Shown: piece by piece, positions 236 through 7,472 of the stretch
Numbering within the stretch: position 1 is the first letter of the stretch
Layout of the letters: each line of letters starts with the position of its first letter
Assembly: GCF_030818545.1 (NCBI RefSeq)
Contig: NZ_JAUTAH010000001.1
Coordinates: forward strand, 2,857,001-2,921,000
Length of the DNA stretch: 64,000 bases
Source: Brevundimonas sp. SORGH_AS_0993
GTDB lineage: Bacteria > Pseudomonadota > Alphaproteobacteria > Caulobacterales > Caulobacteraceae
Direction: 5' to 3'
Position numbers and translations under genes: made by a program
Notes under the pieces: generated by a model
What the model was told of the DNA's origin: nothing
Database searches by the model: none
The model's input: only the letters and a program-made list of their open reading frames with translations

Positions 236-859
236 CTAGCCGCCGCCTTTGCCCGCTTCCGCGCGCGAGGCCAACACGTCCAGCACGTCTTGAAACACCA
301 TGTTACGGGCATGGAGAAGGACGAGCAGGTGATAGATCAAATCCGCGGCCTCGCTGGCGAGTTCCTCGTCAGGGCCGGCGACCCCGGCCAACGCGGTCTC
401 CACCCCTTCTTCGCCCACCTTTTGGGCGATGCGTTTGGGCCCCTGGGCGATCAGCCTGGCGGTCCAGCTTTCGGACGGATCGGCGGCAGCGCGTTCGGCT
501 ATGGTGCGTTCCAGCCGGGCGATCCGGCCAAGACCCGGCGCGTCGGCCTCGCCGAAACAGCTGGTGCGATGCAGATGGCAGGCGTCGCCGACCGGATTGA
601 CCGCCAGAACCAGGGCGTCGGCGTCGCAGTCGGGCGTAATGGAGACGACATGCAGCCGGTCGCCCGAGGTCTCGCCCTTCCTCCACCGCCCGCCGCGCGA
701 GCGCGAGAAGAAGGTGGCCTCGCCCGACTGGATCGTCTCCTCCAGGGCCGCGCGATCCATATAGGCCAAGGTCAGAACCTGAAGCGTGGCTGCGTCCTGG
801 ACCACGACGGGGACCAGGCCGTTCCCTTTCGCGAAATCGATGGTGGCGGGGTCGATCAT
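236..859 (-). CDS. hisIE: Bifunctional phosphoribosyl-AMP cyclohydrolase / phosphoribosyl-ATP pyrophosphatase (HisIE fusion)
   Basis: A 207-residue protein starting MIDPATIDFAKG. The N-terminal cyclohydrolase domain (about 1-115) carries the metal-binding DCDADAL and CHLHRTSCF segments. The C-terminal pyrophosphatase domain (about 118-207) has the helical KVGEEGVET and EAADLIYHLLVLL signatures. It performs histidine steps 2 and 3. The open frame extends 25 codons upstream, but that stretch overlaps a REP-like hairpin and is not family sequence, so ATG at 859 was chosen. It is the last gene of the his operon. Fused HisIE is typical of enterobacteria and xanthomonads; many alphaproteobacteria, Caulobacter as I recall it, keep hisI and hisE apart. 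Confidence 0.93.
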   Translation of the reverse strand: MIDPATIDFAKGNGLVPVVVQDAATLQVLTLAYMDRAALEETIQSGEATFFSRSRGGRWRKGETSGDRLHVVSITPDCDADALVLAVNPVGDACHLHRTSCFGEADAPGLGRIARLERTIAERAAADPSESWTARLIAQGPKRIAQKVGEEGVETALAGVAGPDEELASEAADLIYHLLVLLHARNMVFQDVLDVLASRAEAGKGGG

Positions 860-867
860 TTGTTTCC

Positions 868-990
868 GTTCGTCCCCGCGAAAGCGGAGACCCAGTTCTG
901 TGGTGTGACGGGTCTTGAATAGGGCTCTGTGCACGAAGCGCGACGATTATCGCCCAAAGCGCCGGCTCCCGGCTTTCGGGGGGACGAGCG
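868..990. repeat. Paired REP-like palindromic units between hisF and hisIE
   Basis: Two related units face each other. The left arm at 868-894 reads CGTTCGTCCCCGCGAAAGCG on the plus strand. The right arm at 961-990, read on the minus strand, gives CGCTCGTCCCCCCGAAAGCC. Together they could form a large imperfect hairpin in the 142-bp hisF-hisIE gap. It resembles the common alphaproteobacterial intergenic repeats of the type GTC(C)CCCGCGAAAGCGG. It could stabilise or attenuate the operon mRNA before hisIE. Confidence 0.6.
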
Positions 991-1001
991 GGTGAAAAAC
1001 G

Positions 1002-1769
1002 TCACAGTCTCATCTCCAGGCCCTGATCGGCCAGGTATCGCTTCAGGTCGGGAATGGCGATGGCGCCGGTATGAAAGACGCTGGCGGCCAGGGCCCCCGA
1101 TACGTCGGCCTGGTCGAAGACGTCGCGGAAATGCTCGGGCGCGCCGGCGCCGCCCGAGGCGATGAGGGGGATGGTCAGGCGCGCGCGGGCCGCTGACAGC
1201 TGTTCCAGATCATAGCCGCGCCGCACCCCGTCCTGGTCGATGCAGTTCAGCACGATCTCGCCGGCGCCCAGCCCTTGCGCCTGATCCAGCCAGTCCAGGG
1301 TGCGTTTGCCGGCGCGGCGGCGGGCTTCAGGGTCGCCGGTGTATTTGTGGACGACCCAGTCGCCGTCTTCGAACCGACTGTCGACGCCGACGACGACGCA
1401 CTGGCTGCCCAGCCGTTCGGCCATCTCCGCGATCAGTTCGGGTCGTTCCAGGGCGGGGGAGTTGATCGACACCTTGTCCGCCCCGTGATCCAGGCAGCGC
1501 GCGGCCTGCTCCACGCTGCGGATGCCGCCGGCGACGCAGAAGGGGATGTCCAGCAGGCGGGCGATGTCCCGGATCCAGCCATAGTCCAGGGTCCGGCCCT
1601 CGGGGCTGGCGGCGATGTCGTAGAAGACCAGTTCGTCGGCGCCCGCGTCCCGGTAACGGGCCGCCAGATCGGCGGCGTCGCCCATGTCTGTGTGGCCGAT
1701 GAACTTCACGCCCTTAACCACCCGGCCGTCCTTGACGTCCAGGCAGGGGATTATCCGCCGGGCGGTCAT
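1002..1769 (-). CDS. hisF: Imidazole glycerol phosphate synthase subunit HisF
   Basis: A 255-residue (beta/alpha)8 barrel, close to the usual 250-258. The catalytic aspartate is in the N-terminal PCLDVKDGRVVKG motif and the second lies in the VVGVDSRF strand; the phosphate loops include CVAGGIRS and LIASGGAG. It uses ammonia from HisH to make imidazole glycerol phosphate and AICAR. The segment around 168-185 reads GEIVLNCIDQDGVRRGYD, as in gammaproteobacterial HisF, whereas most alphaproteobacterial HisF have a GEILLTSMDRDG-type sequence. It lies 31 bp after hisA. Confidence 0.95.
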   Translation of the reverse strand: MTARRIIPCLDVKDGRVVKGVKFIGHTDMGDAADLAARYRDAGADELVFYDIAASPEGRTLDYGWIRDIARLLDIPFCVAGGIRSVEQAARCLDHGADKVSINSPALERPELIAEMAERLGSQCVVVGVDSRFEDGDWVVHKYTGDPEARRRAGKRTLDWLDQAQGLGAGEIVLNCIDQDGVRRGYDLEQLSAARARLTIPLIASGGAGAPEHFRDVFDQADVSGALAASVFHTGAIAIPDLKRYLADQGLEMRL

Positions 1770-1800: not shown

Positions 1801-2532
1801 TCATGCCGCCGCCGCTATGGCTTGCGGCAAGGTGAATTGGTTTTCGTAGAGCGCCCGGCCGACGATGGCGCCATGGCAGCCCAGGGCCTTGATCGCCGCA
1901 AGATCGTCCAGGGACGACACCCCCCCCGAAGCCTGAAGCACCAGATCGGGGCGGCGCTGGCGGATCTCGGCCAGCAGGTCCAGGTTCGGGCCGGTCAGGG
2001 CGCCGTCGCGGCCCACGTCCGTGACCAGCAGGTGTTTGGCTGTCCCCTTGGGATAGCGATCCAGCGCCTCCCACAGTGTAATGCCCGACGACTGGGTCCA
2101 GCCCTTCAGGGCCGGAACGGGGACGCCGTTCTCGATCTTGACGTCCAGGGCCAGGGTGATGCGTTCAGGGCCAAAACCTTTCAGCCAAGCGGAGACATCG
2201 TTCGGCTGGGTCACGGCCAGGGAGCCGATCACGACGCGAGACACGCCCGCCTCCAATAGCTTGGCCACGTCGTTGGCGCTGCGGACGCCGCCGCCGGACT
2301 GAATCTTGACCTCGATGGCCTGCGTCAGTTCGCTGATCAGGGCGTGTTGCATGGCCTCGCCCGCCTCCGCCCCGTCCAGGTCGACAATGTGAATCCACTC
2401 GGCGCCCTCGGCCACGAAGGCGCTGAGGCGGGCGGCCGGCTGGTCGTCGTATCGCGTGACCTGGTCGAAATCGCCGTGCATCAGGCGCACGCAGACGCCG
2501 TCCTTCAGGTCGATGGCGGGGTAAATCAGCAT
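1801..2532 (-). CDS. hisA: Phosphoribosylformimino-5-aminoimidazole carboxamide ribotide isomerase HisA
   Basis: A 243-residue TIM barrel starting MLIYPAIDLKDG, whose Asp is the first catalytic residue; VTDVGRDGALTG carries the second, and the phosphate sites are QSGGGVRS and QASGGVSS. It isomerises ProFAR to PRFAR, histidine step 4. The open frame continues far upstream inside hisH, but ATG at 2532 is the family start. It overlaps the hisH stop by seven bases, implying translational coupling. Confidence 0.95.
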   Translation of the reverse strand: MLIYPAIDLKDGVCVRLMHGDFDQVTRYDDQPAARLSAFVAEGAEWIHIVDLDGAEAGEAMQHALISELTQAIEVKIQSGGGVRSANDVAKLLEAGVSRVVIGSLAVTQPNDVSAWLKGFGPERITLALDVKIENGVPVPALKGWTQSSGITLWEALDRYPKGTAKHLLVTDVGRDGALTGPNLDLLAEIRQRRPDLVLQASGGVSSLDDLAAIKALGCHGAIVGRALYENQFTLPQAIAAAA

Positions 2533-3128
2533 GGCAGGCTCAGAAAGTTCTTGAGGATGGTCGCCCCGGCCTCGGCCGAGCGCTCGGGGTGGAACTGGCA
2601 GCCCCAACGGTTGGCGGACCGGACCACGGCCGGGACGACGCCGCCATAGTCGGCGCGGGCCAGGGTGGCGGGCCCGTCGGGGCAGACATAGCCGTGGACG
2701 AAATAGGCGTAGGCGCCGTCGGCCACGCCCTCCAGAAGCGGATCGTCGCGGTCGCGGGCCAGGCGGCTCCAACCCATGTGCGGCACGGGCAGGGGGTCGG
2801 ACGGCTCCAGCCGGGCTACGGCGCCGGGAATGAAGCCCAGCAGATCGACGCCCTCACCTTCCTGGCTGGTTTCGAACAGCAGTTGCTGGCCCAGGCAGAC
2901 GCCAAGAAGCGGGCGCGGGAAGGCGCGGATCGGCTCGCCCAGCCCCAGTTCGGACAGCCGCGACATGGCGTAGCCGGCGGCGCCGACACCGGGCAGGATG
3001 ACCCGTTCGGCCTCCGCGATCACGGCCGGATCGTCGGTCAGGCGCACGGTCGCGCCCAGACGCTCCAGCGCGAACTGGACCGAGGCGACGTTGCCGGCGC
3101 CGTAGGCGATGACGACGACCTCGGTCAT
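2526..3128 (-). CDS. hisH: Imidazole glycerol phosphate synthase glutaminase subunit HisH
   Basis: A 200-residue class I glutamine amidotransferase. The nucleophile Cys is in LLGVCLGQQLLFE (about residue 79), and the His and Glu of the triad are in CQFHPERS near the C-terminus. It supplies ammonia to HisF. Start ATG at 3128 gives MTEVVVIAYGAGN, the expected beginning; the 180 upstream open codons run through a palindromic repeat and the 3' end of hisB and are not coding. Confidence 0.95.
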   Translation of the reverse strand: MTEVVVIAYGAGNVASVQFALERLGATVRLTDDPAVIAEAERVILPGVGAAGYAMSRLSELGLGEPIRAFPRPLLGVCLGQQLLFETSQEGEGVDLLGFIPGAVARLEPSDPLPVPHMGWSRLARDRDDPLLEGVADGAYAYFVHGYVCPDGPATLARADYGGVVPAVVRSANRWGCQFHPERSAEAGATILKNFLSLPC

Positions 3129-3151
3129 TTGGGGCTGGCGGGGGGTGAGGC

Positions 3152-3226
3152 GTGCTAGCGAGCGAAAAGGTGAGCGAGACCGTGCGTGCGTCGCTGATTC
3201 TGCGCTCACTTCTTGCTCACTCGCAC
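3152..3226. repeat. 75-bp palindromic intergenic repeat, copy A (hisB-hisH gap)
   Basis: The reverse complement of this segment aligns without gaps to 4740-4814; I count 54 of 75 positions identical by hand. Both ends are conserved, including AGTGAGCAAGA at one end and GCTAGCAC / ATTAGCAC at the other. Each copy is itself an imperfect inverted repeat built of GTGAGC/GCTCAC-like heptads. It fills the 137-bp gap between hisB and hisH. Confidence 0.75.
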
Positions 3227-3265
3227 TCTTCACTGAACCGCCTCCGACGGCGAAAGCCACGCCCA

Positions 3266-4690
3266 TCACAGCACCCCCTTCGTCGAAGGCACGGCGTCGC
3301 CCTCGATGCGGATGGCCTGGCGCAGGGCGCGGCCGAAGGCCTTGTAGACGGCCTCGGTCTTGTGGTGGTCGTCCTGGCCGGTAACTTTGATGTGGACGGC
3401 GGCGCCCATGGCCTCGGCCAGCGAACGGAAGACGTGGGCCGTCAGATCCGTGCGGTAGTCGCCGATATAGGGCGTCTCGAACGTCCCATCGAACAGCGGA
3501 TAGGGCCGGCCGGAAAGATCGATGGAGACGGCCGCATTCGCCTCGTCCATCGGCAGGACGAAGCCGTAGCGGGCGATGCCCTTCCGTTCGCCCAGAGCCT
3601 GTTTCAGCGCCTGTCCCAGGGCGATGGCGCTGTCCTCGATGGTGTGGTGCGGGTCGGTGTGCAGGTCGCCTTCGCACTGAAGCCGCAGGGAGAAGCCGCC
3701 ATGGGCCGCGATCTGCTCCAGCATGTGATCGAAGAAGCCGACGCCGGTTTCGATCTTCACCGGGCCGGGCGCGTCCAGATCGACCGCGCAGACGATGCGG
3801 GTCTCTTTCGTATCGCGCACGGCCTGGCCGACGCGGGCCGCGCGTCGCTTGGGAGGCGTCAGGCCGAAGGCGGCCAGCATCCGGTCGTTGACCTCCGGCC
3901 TGATCGAGACGGGCAGCCGCAGCCGATCGCCGGACAGGTCGCCTTCGACGCCATAGGCTTTCAGACCGGCCAGGGCGGCGGCGGGCTCTTCGGGGCGGGC
4001 CATGATGATGGGGCCGACGCCCGGTTCGACCGACATCTGGCGACCCAGTTCGCGGGCGATCCGGTCGCGCTCGCGCCGGACCGAAGCGATTCGCTCGGCC
4101 GTCTCGATCATCCGTGACGGATCGAGCGCCTGCTGCGCCAGCCGCACCAGAGGCTCGGGCAGGGCGTAGGGTTCCAACACCGAGACCAACCGGGCCAGCG
4201 TCTGAGGCTGGGCGATCGCGGCGCCGACCCGTGCGCCGGCGAGGCCATAGGCCAGCGACAGGCTCCGCAGCACGACCAGATTCGGCTGGTCGCCCACGAC
4301 CGTCGCGGCCGAGACGCTGTCGGAAAACTCGATCAGCCCTTCGTCCACGATCAGGAGGGCGGGGGCGACGCGCGCGGCCATTTCCGCGACCGCCTCGGGC
4401 GAGCCGAGCGCGCGGATGACCACGACGGCCGGTTCGCCCTTGGCCGGATAGATGGCGCTCAGGCTGTCATAGGGTTCGGCCTTGGGCGCCTGGACCGAAC
4501 CGCCGTCGCGGGCGGCGAGGCGCCAGGCCAGCTCCAGCCCGTGCGTCAGGCCGCGCACGGGCAGAACCGTCTCGGCCGGAGTGGCGTAGATGGCGGCCAT
4601 GCGGGCGGCCAGCGCCGGGGCGTCACCGGGATAGCGGTCCAAGCCTTCGCCGCCGGAGACCAGCGGGGAATAGGGCGCGGGCAGGGTCAT
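3266..4690 (-). CDS. hisB: Fusion of a degenerate HisC-like aminotransferase domain to imidazoleglycerol-phosphate dehydratase HisB
   Basis: A 474-residue protein. Residues 282-474 are a complete IGP dehydratase with both metal-binding HHxxE repeats (DPHHTIEDSA and DDHHKTEAVYK) and GVGFFDHMLE; this domain performs histidine step 6. Residues 1-278 resemble histidinol-phosphate aminotransferase: IVDEGLIEF matches VDEAYIEF, and LRSLSLAYGLAGARVG matches LRTLSKA(F/Y)xLAGLRxG. The PLP-anchoring Lys is Leu146 (codon 4255-4253) and the NPNNPTG loop is gone, so no aminotransferase activity is expected. Gammaproteobacterial HisB instead has an N-terminal phosphatase domain, absent here. A working HisC and a histidinol-phosphatase must be elsewhere. 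ATG at 4690 was chosen because upstream codons run into a palindromic repeat. Confidence 0.9.
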   Translation of the reverse strand: MTLPAPYSPLVSGGEGLDRYPGDAPALAARMAAIYATPAETVLPVRGLTHGLELAWRLAARDGGSVQAPKAEPYDSLSAIYPAKGEPAVVVIRALGSPEAVAEMAARVAPALLIVDEGLIEFSDSVSAATVVGDQPNLVVLRSLSLAYGLAGARVGAAIAQPQTLARLVSVLEPYALPEPLVRLAQQALDPSRMIETAERIASVRRERDRIARELGRQMSVEPGVGPIIMARPEEPAAALAGLKAYGVEGDLSGDRLRLPVSIRPEVNDRMLAAFGLTPPKRRAARVGQAVRDTKETRIVCAVDLDAPGPVKIETGVGFFDHMLEQIAAHGGFSLRLQCEGDLHTDPHHTIEDSAIALGQALKQALGERKGIARYGFVLPMDEANAAVSIDLSGRPYPLFDGTFETPYIGDYRTDLTAHVFRSLAEAMGAAVHIKVTGQDDHHKTEAVYKAFGRALRQAIRIEGDAVPSTKGVL

Positions 4691-4739
4691 CGGTCGGCTC
4701 CGTCCGGGAGGGCCGGGGTGAGGTTTGTCGGGGTGAGCA

Positions 4740-4814
4740 GCGCCAGTGAGCAAGAGGTGAGCTTTGGGACAGCGAAGGCGGGGCGATCTCGCTCGCTTCT
4801 TCGCTCATTAGCAC
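4740..4814. repeat. 75-bp palindromic intergenic repeat, copy B (hisD-hisC'B gap)
   Basis: Same element as 3152-3226 but in opposite orientation, occupying most of the gap between hisD and the hisC'-hisB fusion gene. The two arms (AGTGAGCAAGAGGTGAGC and the complement of GCTCGCTTCTTCGCTCAT) can pair imperfectly, giving a strong RNA hairpin inside the his transcript. Confidence 0.75.
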
Positions 4815-4841
4815 TTCTCACTACTATCGCCGGTCCCGCCC

Positions 4842-6161
4842 TCATCCCTCGCTCCTCAGATCGGCCGCGCGGGCGTGGGCTTCGAGACCCTCCATCCGCG
4901 CCAGGCGGGCGGCGATGGGCGCCAGCAGGCGGGCGCCGGCCGCATCGACCAACTGGACCGACATGGTGGTCATGAAGCTGGCGGTGGTGACGCCTCCCAG
5001 CGTCCGCGCGCCGCCATCGGTCGGCAGGACGTGGCTGGGGCCGGCGGCATAGTCGCCCAGGGTCTCGGCGGCGAACCGGCCGACGAAGACGGCCCCGGCG
5101 GCCTGGATCGAATCGACCAGCGGTTCTGGATCGTCGATCTGGATCGCCAGGTGTTCGGGGCCATAGAGGTTGGCGACCTCTATGGCGGCGTCGAGGTCGC
5201 GCACCAGGATGGCGCGGGCTTCGTTCAGGGAGGCGCGGGCGATGGCTTCGCGCGGCAGGGTCGCGACCTGAACCTCAACCTCGCTCAGGATATAGTCGAT
5301 GGTGGCCCGGCTGGTGGAGACCAGCAGAACCTGCGCATCCGCATCGTGCTCAGCCTGGCTGAGCAGGTCGGCTGCGGCGATCTCGGGCGCGGCGTCGCGG
5401 TCCACGATAACCATCAGCTCGGACGGGCCGGCGGGCATGTCGACGGCGGGACCGCCGGGCAGGGCGGCCGCCTGCTTCTTGGCCTCGGCCACATAGGCGT
5501 TTCCGGGGCCGAACAGCTTGTCGCAGGCGGGGATGATCCCGTCCTCCAATTCGACGCCGAAGGTCAGGGCGGCGATGGCCTGAGCCCCGCCCATCAACCA
5601 GATGGCGTCCAACTCCGCCTCTGCGGCGGCCAGGATCATGGCGGGGTGGATCCCGCCATCCTTGTTCGGCGGCGTCACGGCGACGCGCTGGCCCACGCCC
5701 GCGACGCCGGCGGGTATGGCCAGCATCAGCAGCGACGAAAACAGCGGCGCGGTGCCGCCCGGAATATAAAGGCCGGCCGAGGCGATGGGACGCCAGGCCA
5801 GTTTGGAGCGCACGCCAGGCGTGGTCTCGACAAAGGGGGTGTCCTCGGGCCGGGTCGCCTGATGGAAGACGCGCACATTGTCGGCCGCCATCCGCAGGGC
5901 GCGAACGTCGGCAGGGGGCAGGGCCGCGCGCGCCTCGGCCACCGTTTCCGGCGTAATGGCGATGCGCCGCGGCGGGGCCTTGTCCAGCTTGACGCACCAG
6001 TCCGTAACGGCCGCGCCGCCACGCGCGCGCACGTCGTCCAGAATGGTGCGAACCACGTCTGTCACGTCGCCGGCGGTGCGCTGGGCCGGACGAGCAAGCG
6101 CGGCCTTCTTTCCGGCAGCGTCGAGGGAGGACCAGTCGATGCGTTTGAACAGGTCGCCCAT
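4842..6161 (-). CDS. hisD: Histidinol dehydrogenase
   Basis: A 439-residue zinc enzyme that oxidises L-histidinol to histidine in two NAD+-dependent steps, the last of the pathway. Diagnostic segments are the DMPAGPSELMVIVD nucleotide region, the LLSQAEHDADAQ helix with catalytic Glu and His, YGPEHLAI, and AGPSHVLPT. Length matches the family (about 430). ATG at 6161 shares one base with the hisG stop codon (TGATG), so translation is coupled; a longer in-frame extension overlapping hisG was rejected. Confidence 0.96.
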   Translation of the reverse strand: MGDLFKRIDWSSLDAAGKKAALARPAQRTAGDVTDVVRTILDDVRARGGAAVTDWCVKLDKAPPRRIAITPETVAEARAALPPADVRALRMAADNVRVFHQATRPEDTPFVETTPGVRSKLAWRPIASAGLYIPGGTAPLFSSLLMLAIPAGVAGVGQRVAVTPPNKDGGIHPAMILAAAEAELDAIWLMGGAQAIAALTFGVELEDGIIPACDKLFGPGNAYVAEAKKQAAALPGGPAVDMPAGPSELMVIVDRDAAPEIAAADLLSQAEHDADAQVLLVSTSRATIDYILSEVEVQVATLPREAIARASLNEARAILVRDLDAAIEVANLYGPEHLAIQIDDPEPLVDSIQAAGAVFVGRFAAETLGDYAAGPSHVLPTDGGARTLGGVTTASFMTTMSVQLVDAAGARLLAPIAARLARMEGLEAHARAADLRSEG

Positions 6162-7042
6162 CACATCATCTTCTCGATGGGCAGGACCAGGATGGCCGAG
6201 GCGCCGGCTGCCTTCAGCTTCTCCAGCGTCTCCCAAAAGACGGCTTCCTGGCAGACGGCGTGGACGGCGACCGCGTCATCGCGGCCCATCAGCGGCATGA
6301 CGGTTGGCGAACCGGCGCCGGGCAGGATGGCGGTGATTTCGTCGAGGGCCGAACGCGGGGCGTTCAGCATGACGTATTTGGCGCCCTGCGAGGACACCAC
6401 GCCCGACATCCGTTCGATGATGCTGTCCAGCAGGTGTTGCAGGCCGGGCTCGGGCGCGACGGGCGACTGGATCAGGACGGCCTGGCTTTCCAGCACCGTG
6501 TCCTTGGCGCCCAGGCCATTGGCCTCCAGCGTCGCGCCGGTCGAGACCAGATCACAGATGGCGGCGGCCAGCTTCAACCGGGGCGCGACCTCGACGGCGC
6601 CGCGCATGACGACGATGTCGGCCTTGACCCCGCGCTCGTCCAGGAAGCGGCGCAGGATTTTCGGATAAGACGTGGCGATCCGCAGGCCCTCCAGCGACGC
6701 CGGTCCGTCATAGGCCAGGGTCGGCGGCGTGGCGATCTTCAGCGTGCAGCGGCCGAAGCCCAGCGGCATGACGATGGAGGCGTTCGGTCCGCCGTTGCGG
6801 CCCTCTTCCAGCACGTTCTCGCCGACGATGCCCAGATCGCAGACGCCGTCCGCCACGAAGGTGGGGATGTCGTCGTCGCGGACGCGCAACAGGTCGATCG
6901 GATAGTTCTCGACCCGGTACAGCAGGTCGTTGTGACCCTTGACCCATTTCAGGCCCGCGTCCCGGATCAGGTCGAGGCTTCGGTCGGCCAGACGGCCGGA
7001 TTTCTGGACGGCGATGCGAAGCCGGCCCTGGACGGTGCTCAT
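6161..7042 (-). CDS. hisG: ATP phosphoribosyltransferase, long form HisG
   Basis: A 293-residue long-form HisG, the committed step of histidine synthesis and the usual site of feedback inhibition by histidine. Visible are RLRIAVQKSGRL, the CDLGIVGENV strand, the PRPP-binding DLVSTGATLEANGL loop, and a C-terminal regulatory ACT-like domain from about residue 215 ending LVLPIEKMM. Long HisG works without HisZ. Caulobacter-type alphaproteobacteria generally use short HisG plus HisZ as I recall, so this form is out of character. It lies 10 bp after the TrpR-like gene. Confidence 0.95.
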   Translation of the reverse strand: MSTVQGRLRIAVQKSGRLADRSLDLIRDAGLKWVKGHNDLLYRVENYPIDLLRVRDDDIPTFVADGVCDLGIVGENVLEEGRNGGPNASIVMPLGFGRCTLKIATPPTLAYDGPASLEGLRIATSYPKILRRFLDERGVKADIVVMRGAVEVAPRLKLAAAICDLVSTGATLEANGLGAKDTVLESQAVLIQSPVAPEPGLQHLLDSIIERMSGVVSSQGAKYVMLNAPRSALDEITAILPGAGSPTVMPLMGRDDAVAVHAVCQEAVFWETLEKLKAAGASAILVLPIEKMM

Positions 7043-7390: not shown

Positions 7391-7472
7391 TGGTGAGTGG
7401 CGAGTGGCGAGTGGCGAGAAAATCTGGGCATCCGTCGCTTGCTCGCCACTCGCCACTCGCCACTCGCCACTC
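7391..7472. repeat. Heptad palindrome (GAGTGGC units) between divergent genes
   Basis: The left arm repeats GAGTGGC / GAGTGGCGA in tandem (7395-7418) and the right arm repeats its complement CTCGCCACTCGCCACTC (7442-7472), separated by about 23 bases. It can form a near-perfect stem of more than 20 bp. It sits between the divergent his operon and the flavoprotein gene. Its heptad architecture resembles the two 75-bp repeats inside the operon, though the sequence differs. Confidence 0.75.

Follow-up and report, generated by a model that had tools for sequence, protein, structure and literature searches.

HisB (IGP dehydratase, IGPD) and HisC (histidinol-phosphate aminotransferase) catalyze consecutive steps of histidine biosynthesis. 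Among the closest described systems is the HisN-HisB protein of E. coli (E. coli HisB), in which a HAD phosphatase is joined to the N terminus of IGPD. Other his fusions likewise join enzymes of the pathway, among them hisIE, hisHF/HIS7, hisIED/HIS4 and hisA/hisF (PMC1963479, in its accessible sections). Those sections (Fani et al., 2007) describe five his fusions, among which there is neither one involving hisC nor a pairing of HisD with HisB; the fused genes are given as hisA, B, D, E, F, H, I and N, with hisC absent. In excerpts of a 2023 operon review, hisC is not among the seven fused genes (PMC10138114), and the excerpt on a multi-domain his fusion of Acanthamoeba names no aminotransferase (PMC6029752). 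We came across neither a HisC-HisB nor a HisD-HisB fusion in the accessible parts of the open literature, and protein databases may well annotate single members. The expression "hisC-hisB" in PMC6432763 and PMC7696456 denotes, in the excerpts at hand, the hisD-hisC-hisB operon of Corynebacterium and no fusion.

We analyzed a window of 64,000 nucleotides from Brevundimonas sp. SORGH_AS_0993 (the whole stretch of DNA considered here), in which an initial annotation had proposed that a HisC-like domain without the PLP lysine (Leu146 in its place) and without the NPNNPTG loop is fused to an intact IGPD. Pfam and alignment agree with that proposal, and a HisC-type domain of this kind fused to HisB was confirmed; the strand, which the annotation had not given, is minus (Table 1). 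Aminotran_1_2 matched at residues 99-217 (48.4 bits against a cut-off of 19.7), within the residues 1-278 that had been assigned to HisC, and IGPD (PF00475) at residues 315-456 (200.3 bits against 27). Among the NCBIfam models, hisC TIGR01141 scored 87.2 bits, far under its equivalog cut-off of 276.55, while HisB model NF002111 was passed (244 against 231), the remaining HisB models shown being below cut-off. The Pfam scan found no HAD phosphatase domain in the window protein, and a match to PRK05446 begins only at profile position 165 and scores under its cut-off. The partner of IGPD is of aminotransferase fold, unlike the phosphatase of gammaproteobacterial HisB, a difference that the initial annotation had pointed out, and the HisN-type phosphatase gene is separate. 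What the two fusions share is a his enzyme on the IGPD N terminus, an R-x-T-x-E-T linker motif and the operon order.

Table 1. Features of the fusion gene and the surrounding his operon (window coordinates).
Feature	Position	Strand	Evidence
Fusion gene, dead HisC domain + HisB (IGP dehydratase), 474 codons + stop; ATG at 4690, stop at 3266-3268	3266..4690	minus	ORF, Pfam, NCBIfam
Pseudo-HisC domain, residues 1-281	3848..4690	minus	Pfam, alignment to E. coli HisC, AlphaFold2 model
Leu146 codon, at position of PLP lysine (E. coli HisC K214)	4253..4255	minus	alignment
IGP dehydratase domain, residues 282-474	3269..3847	minus	Pfam, motifs
hisG	6161..7042	minus	tblastn with E. coli His proteins
hisD	4842..6161 (start inferred; similarity 4854-6140)	minus	tblastn
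hisH	2526..3128 (start inferred; similarity 2535-3125)	minus	tblastn
hisA	1801..2529 (start inferred; similarity 1822-2529)	minus	tblastn
hisF	1002..1769	minus	tblastn
hisIE	236..934 (longest ORF; similarity 257-841)	minus	tblastn

In the alignment to E. coli HisC, K214 corresponds to L146, Y187 to L119 and R322 to D251; N157 and the NPNNPTG loop are deleted, and the N-terminal arm and several inner stretches of HisC are absent. Kept are D184 (D116), S213 (S145), R222 (R154) and R335 (R258). In E. coli HisC, K214 forms the Schiff base with PLP and N157 contacts PLP. The IGPD half carries two His-His motifs, HHTIED (348-353) and HHKTEA (442-447), which we take to have their usual roles in IGP dehydratase. 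Judged from these residues, the HisC domain of the window protein would be catalytically dead, and only the IGPD half should be catalytic today. An AlphaFold2 model of the protein, based on an 18-sequence alignment, had a mean pLDDT of 84.7 and a pTM of 0.57; averaged over blocks of 10 residues, pLDDT was 39-47 up to residue 20 and 80-95 thereafter. Model residues 285-465 superposed on plant IGPD (Z 28.3) and residues 14-275 on 1gew, a structure of E. coli HisC (Z 27.7, 2.2 Å over 261 residues), the aminotransferase fold being possibly imposed in part by the lysine-bearing homologues in the model's alignment. The large domain of a fold type I aminotransferase is present in the model, in agreement with the Pfam match; predicted fold and much of the large-domain core are those of HisC (TIGR01141; E. 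coli 1fg3, 1gew), and the pseudo-HisC domain is probably folded.

The genome of the window consists of one contig of 2,986,043 bases and is 99.89% complete. The window protein is 77% identical to its counterpart in Brevundimonas sp. MYb52 and 74% identical to that of a Brevundimonas MAG; a PHROGs search gave no match. The initial annotation had offered, as one alternative, that an unlinked HisC took over, and a separate HisC over the cut-off is indeed present (G000:C1:1697362-1698408, 290.7 bits). Another HisC-like protein scores lower (195.5 bits), and the genome has a gene for a HisN-type histidinol phosphatase (293 bits against a cut-off of 275.15). HisN has been reported as generally present in Caulobacterales (PMC5516325, in part). 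Transcription on the minus strand runs hisG, hisD, fusion, hisH, hisA, hisF, hisIE, which is the E. coli order, and tblastn with E. coli His proteins places the fusion at the hisC-hisB position of a hisGD[CB]HAF(IE) operon in the window and in loci L073, L131 and L138. Intergenic elements of ~89 nt (3145-3233 and 4733-4821) flank the fusion gene in opposite orientation and are 72% complementary. The stretch 3140-3240 has seven further matches at six genome places, the second flank among them, so the flanking element belongs to a dispersed repeat family; at one genome place both strands match the stretch, which is the behavior expected of an element that forms a hairpin. Upstream of hisG, a perfect inverted repeat of GAGTGGC units (7395-7472; 24 nt arms, 30 nt between) falls in the first part of a minus-strand ORF (7559-7053) that we take, by eye, to be TrpR/YerC-like.

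The same-genus sample comprised 56 genomes of Brevundimonas (genus g1) within 249 Caulobacteraceae genomes. A full-length, open, short fusion was found in 51 of the 56 and a lysine-bearing fusion in one (G092). IGPD was not recovered in four, three of which are also without HisD; HisD is present near a contig end in G131, where the IGPD gap may be technical. The fusion also occurs in 24 of 25 genomes of genus g14 (matches of 1.3e-115 or better). Fusion-bearing genomes were inspected in part, residues being read in 50 of the 51 short g1 fusions, 18 of the 24 from g14, G009 and G092. The reading frame is open throughout in all 50 Brevundimonas fusions. The position of the PLP lysine holds Leu in 48, Met in two and a lysine in none, the Asn157 column is a gap in 50/50, and Y187 is lost in 50/50.

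Beyond the genus, a match of more than 480 bits over the HisC-HisB length was obtained in 44 of 398 Caulobacterales genomes, 21 of which were inspected (G092 and 20 others). K214 is present in 20 of these 21, and exactly these 20 score over the hisC cut-off; Asn157 is present in 19 of the 20, the exception being G276 (Ser157). The remaining genome, G327, is in mid-decay: its domain is 351 residues long, with position 214 occupied by Ser, 157 by Asp and 222 by Pro. Among 385 genomes drawn across the class, long fused matches (438-476 bits) appeared in eight genomes of other alphaproteobacterial families, all of them single ORFs with the lysine in an RT[LM]SK motif; Asn157, read from the motif, is absent in L226, L228 and L230. 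Across the phylum (398 genomes, E of 1e-50 or better), stop-free two-domain matches were confined to Caulobacterales and G925, and G925 was left out of the counts since its HisC end looks frameshifted into the HisB start. G853 was also set aside, its hisC and hisB being adjacent with stops between them. A contig-wide scan listed at least six lysine-bearing HisC-like-HisB single ORFs in MAG contigs labelled as Bacteroidales (L240, L242, L245), Gemmatimonadales (L243), Thermoleophilia (L257) and an actinobacterium (L258); they might reflect independent fusion events, gene transfer or wrongly binned contigs. The lysine-bearing fusions of relatives (e.g. Robiginitomaculum L236, Hellea L237) share domain order, operon place and tree group with the window protein, but differ from it in having a full-length HisC with lysine and loop; they are presumably bifunctional.

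If the fused HisC domain decayed because it had become redundant, then genomes with a dead domain should carry another HisC. We searched hisC in 79 of the genomes with fetched loci, counting as separate HisC any protein of 270 bits or more. Such a protein was found in 58/58 genomes with a decayed domain against 5/21 with a length-intact one (Fisher's p = 9e-13, of which only the direction is to be trusted, the relatives not being independent). It was over the family cut-off in 57 of the 58 and reached 275.6 bits in the other (G323). With G327 reclassed as decayed by its residues, the comparison becomes 59/59 dead or lost against 4/20 lysine-bearing; in the other 16 of these 20 genomes, no separate HisC reached 270 bits. 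The four with both (G092, G259, G276, G426) are in the state expected before decay, and one of them, G276, carries the Ser157 mentioned above. G083, G171 and G207 (g1) and G003 (g3), all without HisB and HisD and perhaps histidine auxotrophs, retain a separate HisC that scores over the family cut-off. The separate HisC therefore probably has an additional job beyond histidine; by inference this is perhaps aromatic transamination. The relic reading of the initial annotation draws good support from the existence of lysine-bearing fusions, from the grouping of the dead domains with these fusions and apart from the separate HisC (see the trees below), and from the separate HisC found wherever the fused domain was dead or lost in the sample, but its unlinked HisC does not hold throughout, as in some relatives the replacing HisC sits at the operon end. 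There a second, more distant HisC gene (23-27% identical to E. coli HisC) lies directly behind hisIE (L213 of G009 and f3 loci such as L153), in the very operon whose fused HisC is dead.

We examined the history of the fusion with trees of either domain. In a HisC-domain tree of 36 rows, fused lysine-bearing and fused pseudo-domains formed one group of 19 rows (support 99/99*), apart from the separate HisC proteins, which formed their own group (100/100*). The pseudo-domains of g1, g14 and f3 were joined on long branches (100/99*), which may reflect attraction of fast rows. The careful IGPD tree held 69 of 109 rows, 40 having been left out for long branches or as near-copies; in the quick tree of all 109, the two outgroup rows took separate places. 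On the IGPD tree, the intact fusion of G092 and the Brevundimonas pseudo-fusions are sister groups (97/85*). The label "HisC dead or gone" requires five changes there (5-5 in bootstrap trees), two of them being forced by starred branches. These changes were counted without direction; we take the lysine-bearing state as ancestral because it is the functional one and because of the deletions. A single loss of the lysine for all was considered: for g1, g14 and f3 it would be compatible with the HisC-domain tree, and the IGPD tree does not favor it. The HisC-domain tree suggests fewer losses than the IGPD tree, and makes the intact domain of G092 harder to place. Losses numbered at least two, perhaps about five.

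The relatives can be arranged as a series. In the lysine-bearing state (a), the HisC part measures up to 371 residues (351-371 in 20 rows including G327). At near full length without the lysine (b) stands G327, with Ser in its place. Shortened, lysine-less domains (c) measure 284-310 residues in Brevundimonas; 307-316 in g14, with Phe (11) or Tyr (7) at the lysine position; 261-306 in f3 (starts inferred; 306 is an upper bound from L158, whose start is doubtful), with Lys in 0/11; 225 and 289 in f5; and 231 in the remnant domain of G009. Remnants of ~192-228 residues without a blastp match to HisC (d) occur in 14 f4 loci, such as that of Woodsholea maritima (G433), the lengths being taken from the nearest plausible starts, with longer starts possible in three; G1008, outside Caulobacterales, has one as well. 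Finally, HisC is gone and HisD is fused directly to HisB (e) in six complete f3 loci (L159-L164) and six f4 loci (L171, L173, L178, L181, L184, L187). All 12 of these ORFs align with E. coli HisD over at least 414 residues, and both of the two submitted to Pfam contained Histidinol_dh (PF00815) and IGPD (PF00475) in one ORF. HisD-HisB requires three changes on the 109-row IGPD tree, two of them forced by starred branches. Taken together, the relatives display graded stages that start with an apparently functional bifunctional protein, pass through decay and end with the domain gone entirely.

We next consider selection on the pseudo-domain, measured as NG86 dN/dS in pairs filtered to dS 0.05-1.5. 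In Brevundimonas (1140 pairs), the HisC part had a median omega of 0.327 and IGPD one of 0.153; in g14 the values were 0.222 and 0.093 (65 pairs). The control was the separate HisC of the same genomes, available for 13 of 14 (77 pairs; that of G107 was not recovered). Omega there was 0.321 for the pseudo-domain, 0.305 for the separate HisC and 0.141 for IGPD, and dN was 0.254, 0.142 and 0.079, with the dN of the pseudo-domain in a median ratio of 1.77 to that of the separate HisC and of 2.98 to that of IGPD. The pseudo-domain evolves faster, yet nowhere near neutrally, and its omega taken alone is no different from that of the working HisC. In 50 Brevundimonas, 61 of 291 columns are invariant, S213, R222 and D184 among them. 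If the domain were retained for a ligand pocket or sensor, then active-site residues should be favored. The 77 near-invariant columns of 20 lysine-bearing fusions comprise 12 active-site and 65 other positions, and Brevundimonas keeps 6/12 of the former against 31/65 of the latter, g14 4/12 and 25/65, and f3 2/12 and 17/65. These counts show no preference for the active site, and a retained pocket was set aside although the conservation of D184, S213 and R222 in Brevundimonas had looked suggestive. The pattern leans toward selection for folding rather than for ligand binding. Free HisB from an internal start was also considered and is unlikely, judging by the linker sequences: 8/50 Brevundimonas linkers have no candidate start codon, and a start preceded by an SD-like sequence occurs in 2/50. 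A GTG codon directly ahead of the linker motif is nevertheless common (at least 22/50).

We consider it likely, from the comparisons above, that the domain is a dead, folded relic of a fused HisC-HisB enzyme, trapped in frame before a HisB that is needed. We infer from these comparisons an ancestral activity, its loss in this protein, a mechanism of retention and, for the separate HisC, the extra job. The ancestor would have been a fused HisC-HisB occupying the place of hisC and hisB in a compact his operon, presumably bifunctional because its two parts catalyze consecutive steps. The host line carries an independent HisC as well, probably with another job, and the fused domain would therefore have become redundant. 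Lysine, PLP loop and several segments would then have been lost. Since the domain precedes a needed enzyme within one reading frame, nonsense and frameshift mutations would be selected against, and the trapped domain would have shrunk solely by in-frame deletions. The open frame in 50 Brevundimonas and the lack of a general internal start with SD sequence make trapping the best description. The N-terminal half would persist as a folded, dead appendage, selected mainly to fold and not to harm HisB assembly. HisB would work on, histidinol-phosphate transamination would have moved to the separate HisC, and HisN would perform the phosphatase step.

Against a pure relic speaks the degree of constraint, since omega of ~0.32 and 61/291 invariant columns are more than it needs. 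The dead domain might instead be kept for a non-catalytic task, as a scaffold of the HisB oligomer, a site where the separate HisC or HisN docks, or a sensor of a phosphorylated intermediate. We think this unlikely, though deserving of attention. Purifying selection, the predicted fold with its high pLDDT and its Z score to E. coli HisC, the steady length in 50 Brevundimonas and the invariance of S213, R222 and D184 would fit such a task, and the first two would be compatible with the structural or regulatory role that the initial annotation had suggested. That role is weakened by the even retention of active-site and other residues and by related lineages that cut the domain to ~190-230 residues or deleted it; moreover, R222 is Pro in 11/11 f3 and R335 is lost in 18/18 g14, and the fold may be imposed by lysine-bearing homologues in the alignment. 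It is improbable that the IGPD N terminus is a standing acceptor for his enzymes (HisN, HisC, HisD) and that the dead HisC is kept in the HisB assembly or in contact with the separate HisC and HisN, as a metabolon-derived pseudoenzyme.

If the domain were still an aminotransferase, using another residue or acting as half of a mixed dimer, then the large conservation of D184, S213, R222, R335 and Y55 in Brevundimonas would be understandable. The absence of K214, the deletion of N157 and the loss of Y187, each in 50/50, together with the presence of a separate HisC over the family cut-off, make this very improbable. An artefact of assembly, frameshift or annotation is the least credible reading, with almost nothing to recommend it: no sign of one was found for the window, the unrelated ORF of G925 being the case that looks like frameshift read-through, the single-contig genome argues against it, and independent genomes, with full-length open fusions in 51/56 of the same genus, refute it. 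The trapped relic is our preferred explanation.

HisC-HisB is a further kind of his gene fusion, and the window protein is its decayed form. Metabolic gene fusions are usually read as gains. Here, one bacterial order preserves an apparent natural experiment in fusion, redundancy, death in place, shrinkage, loss and the new fusion of the next upstream gene. The series suggests why a useless N-terminal domain can last across a genus, namely that stops and frameshifts cannot remove it. It also carries a warning, in that annotation transfer may label such proteins aminotransferases. With defined lysine-bearing and decayed relatives, the retention of pseudoenzymes becomes testable. Finally, the finding of HisN, HisC and HisD all at the same end of HisB suggests that this end tolerates or favors partners.
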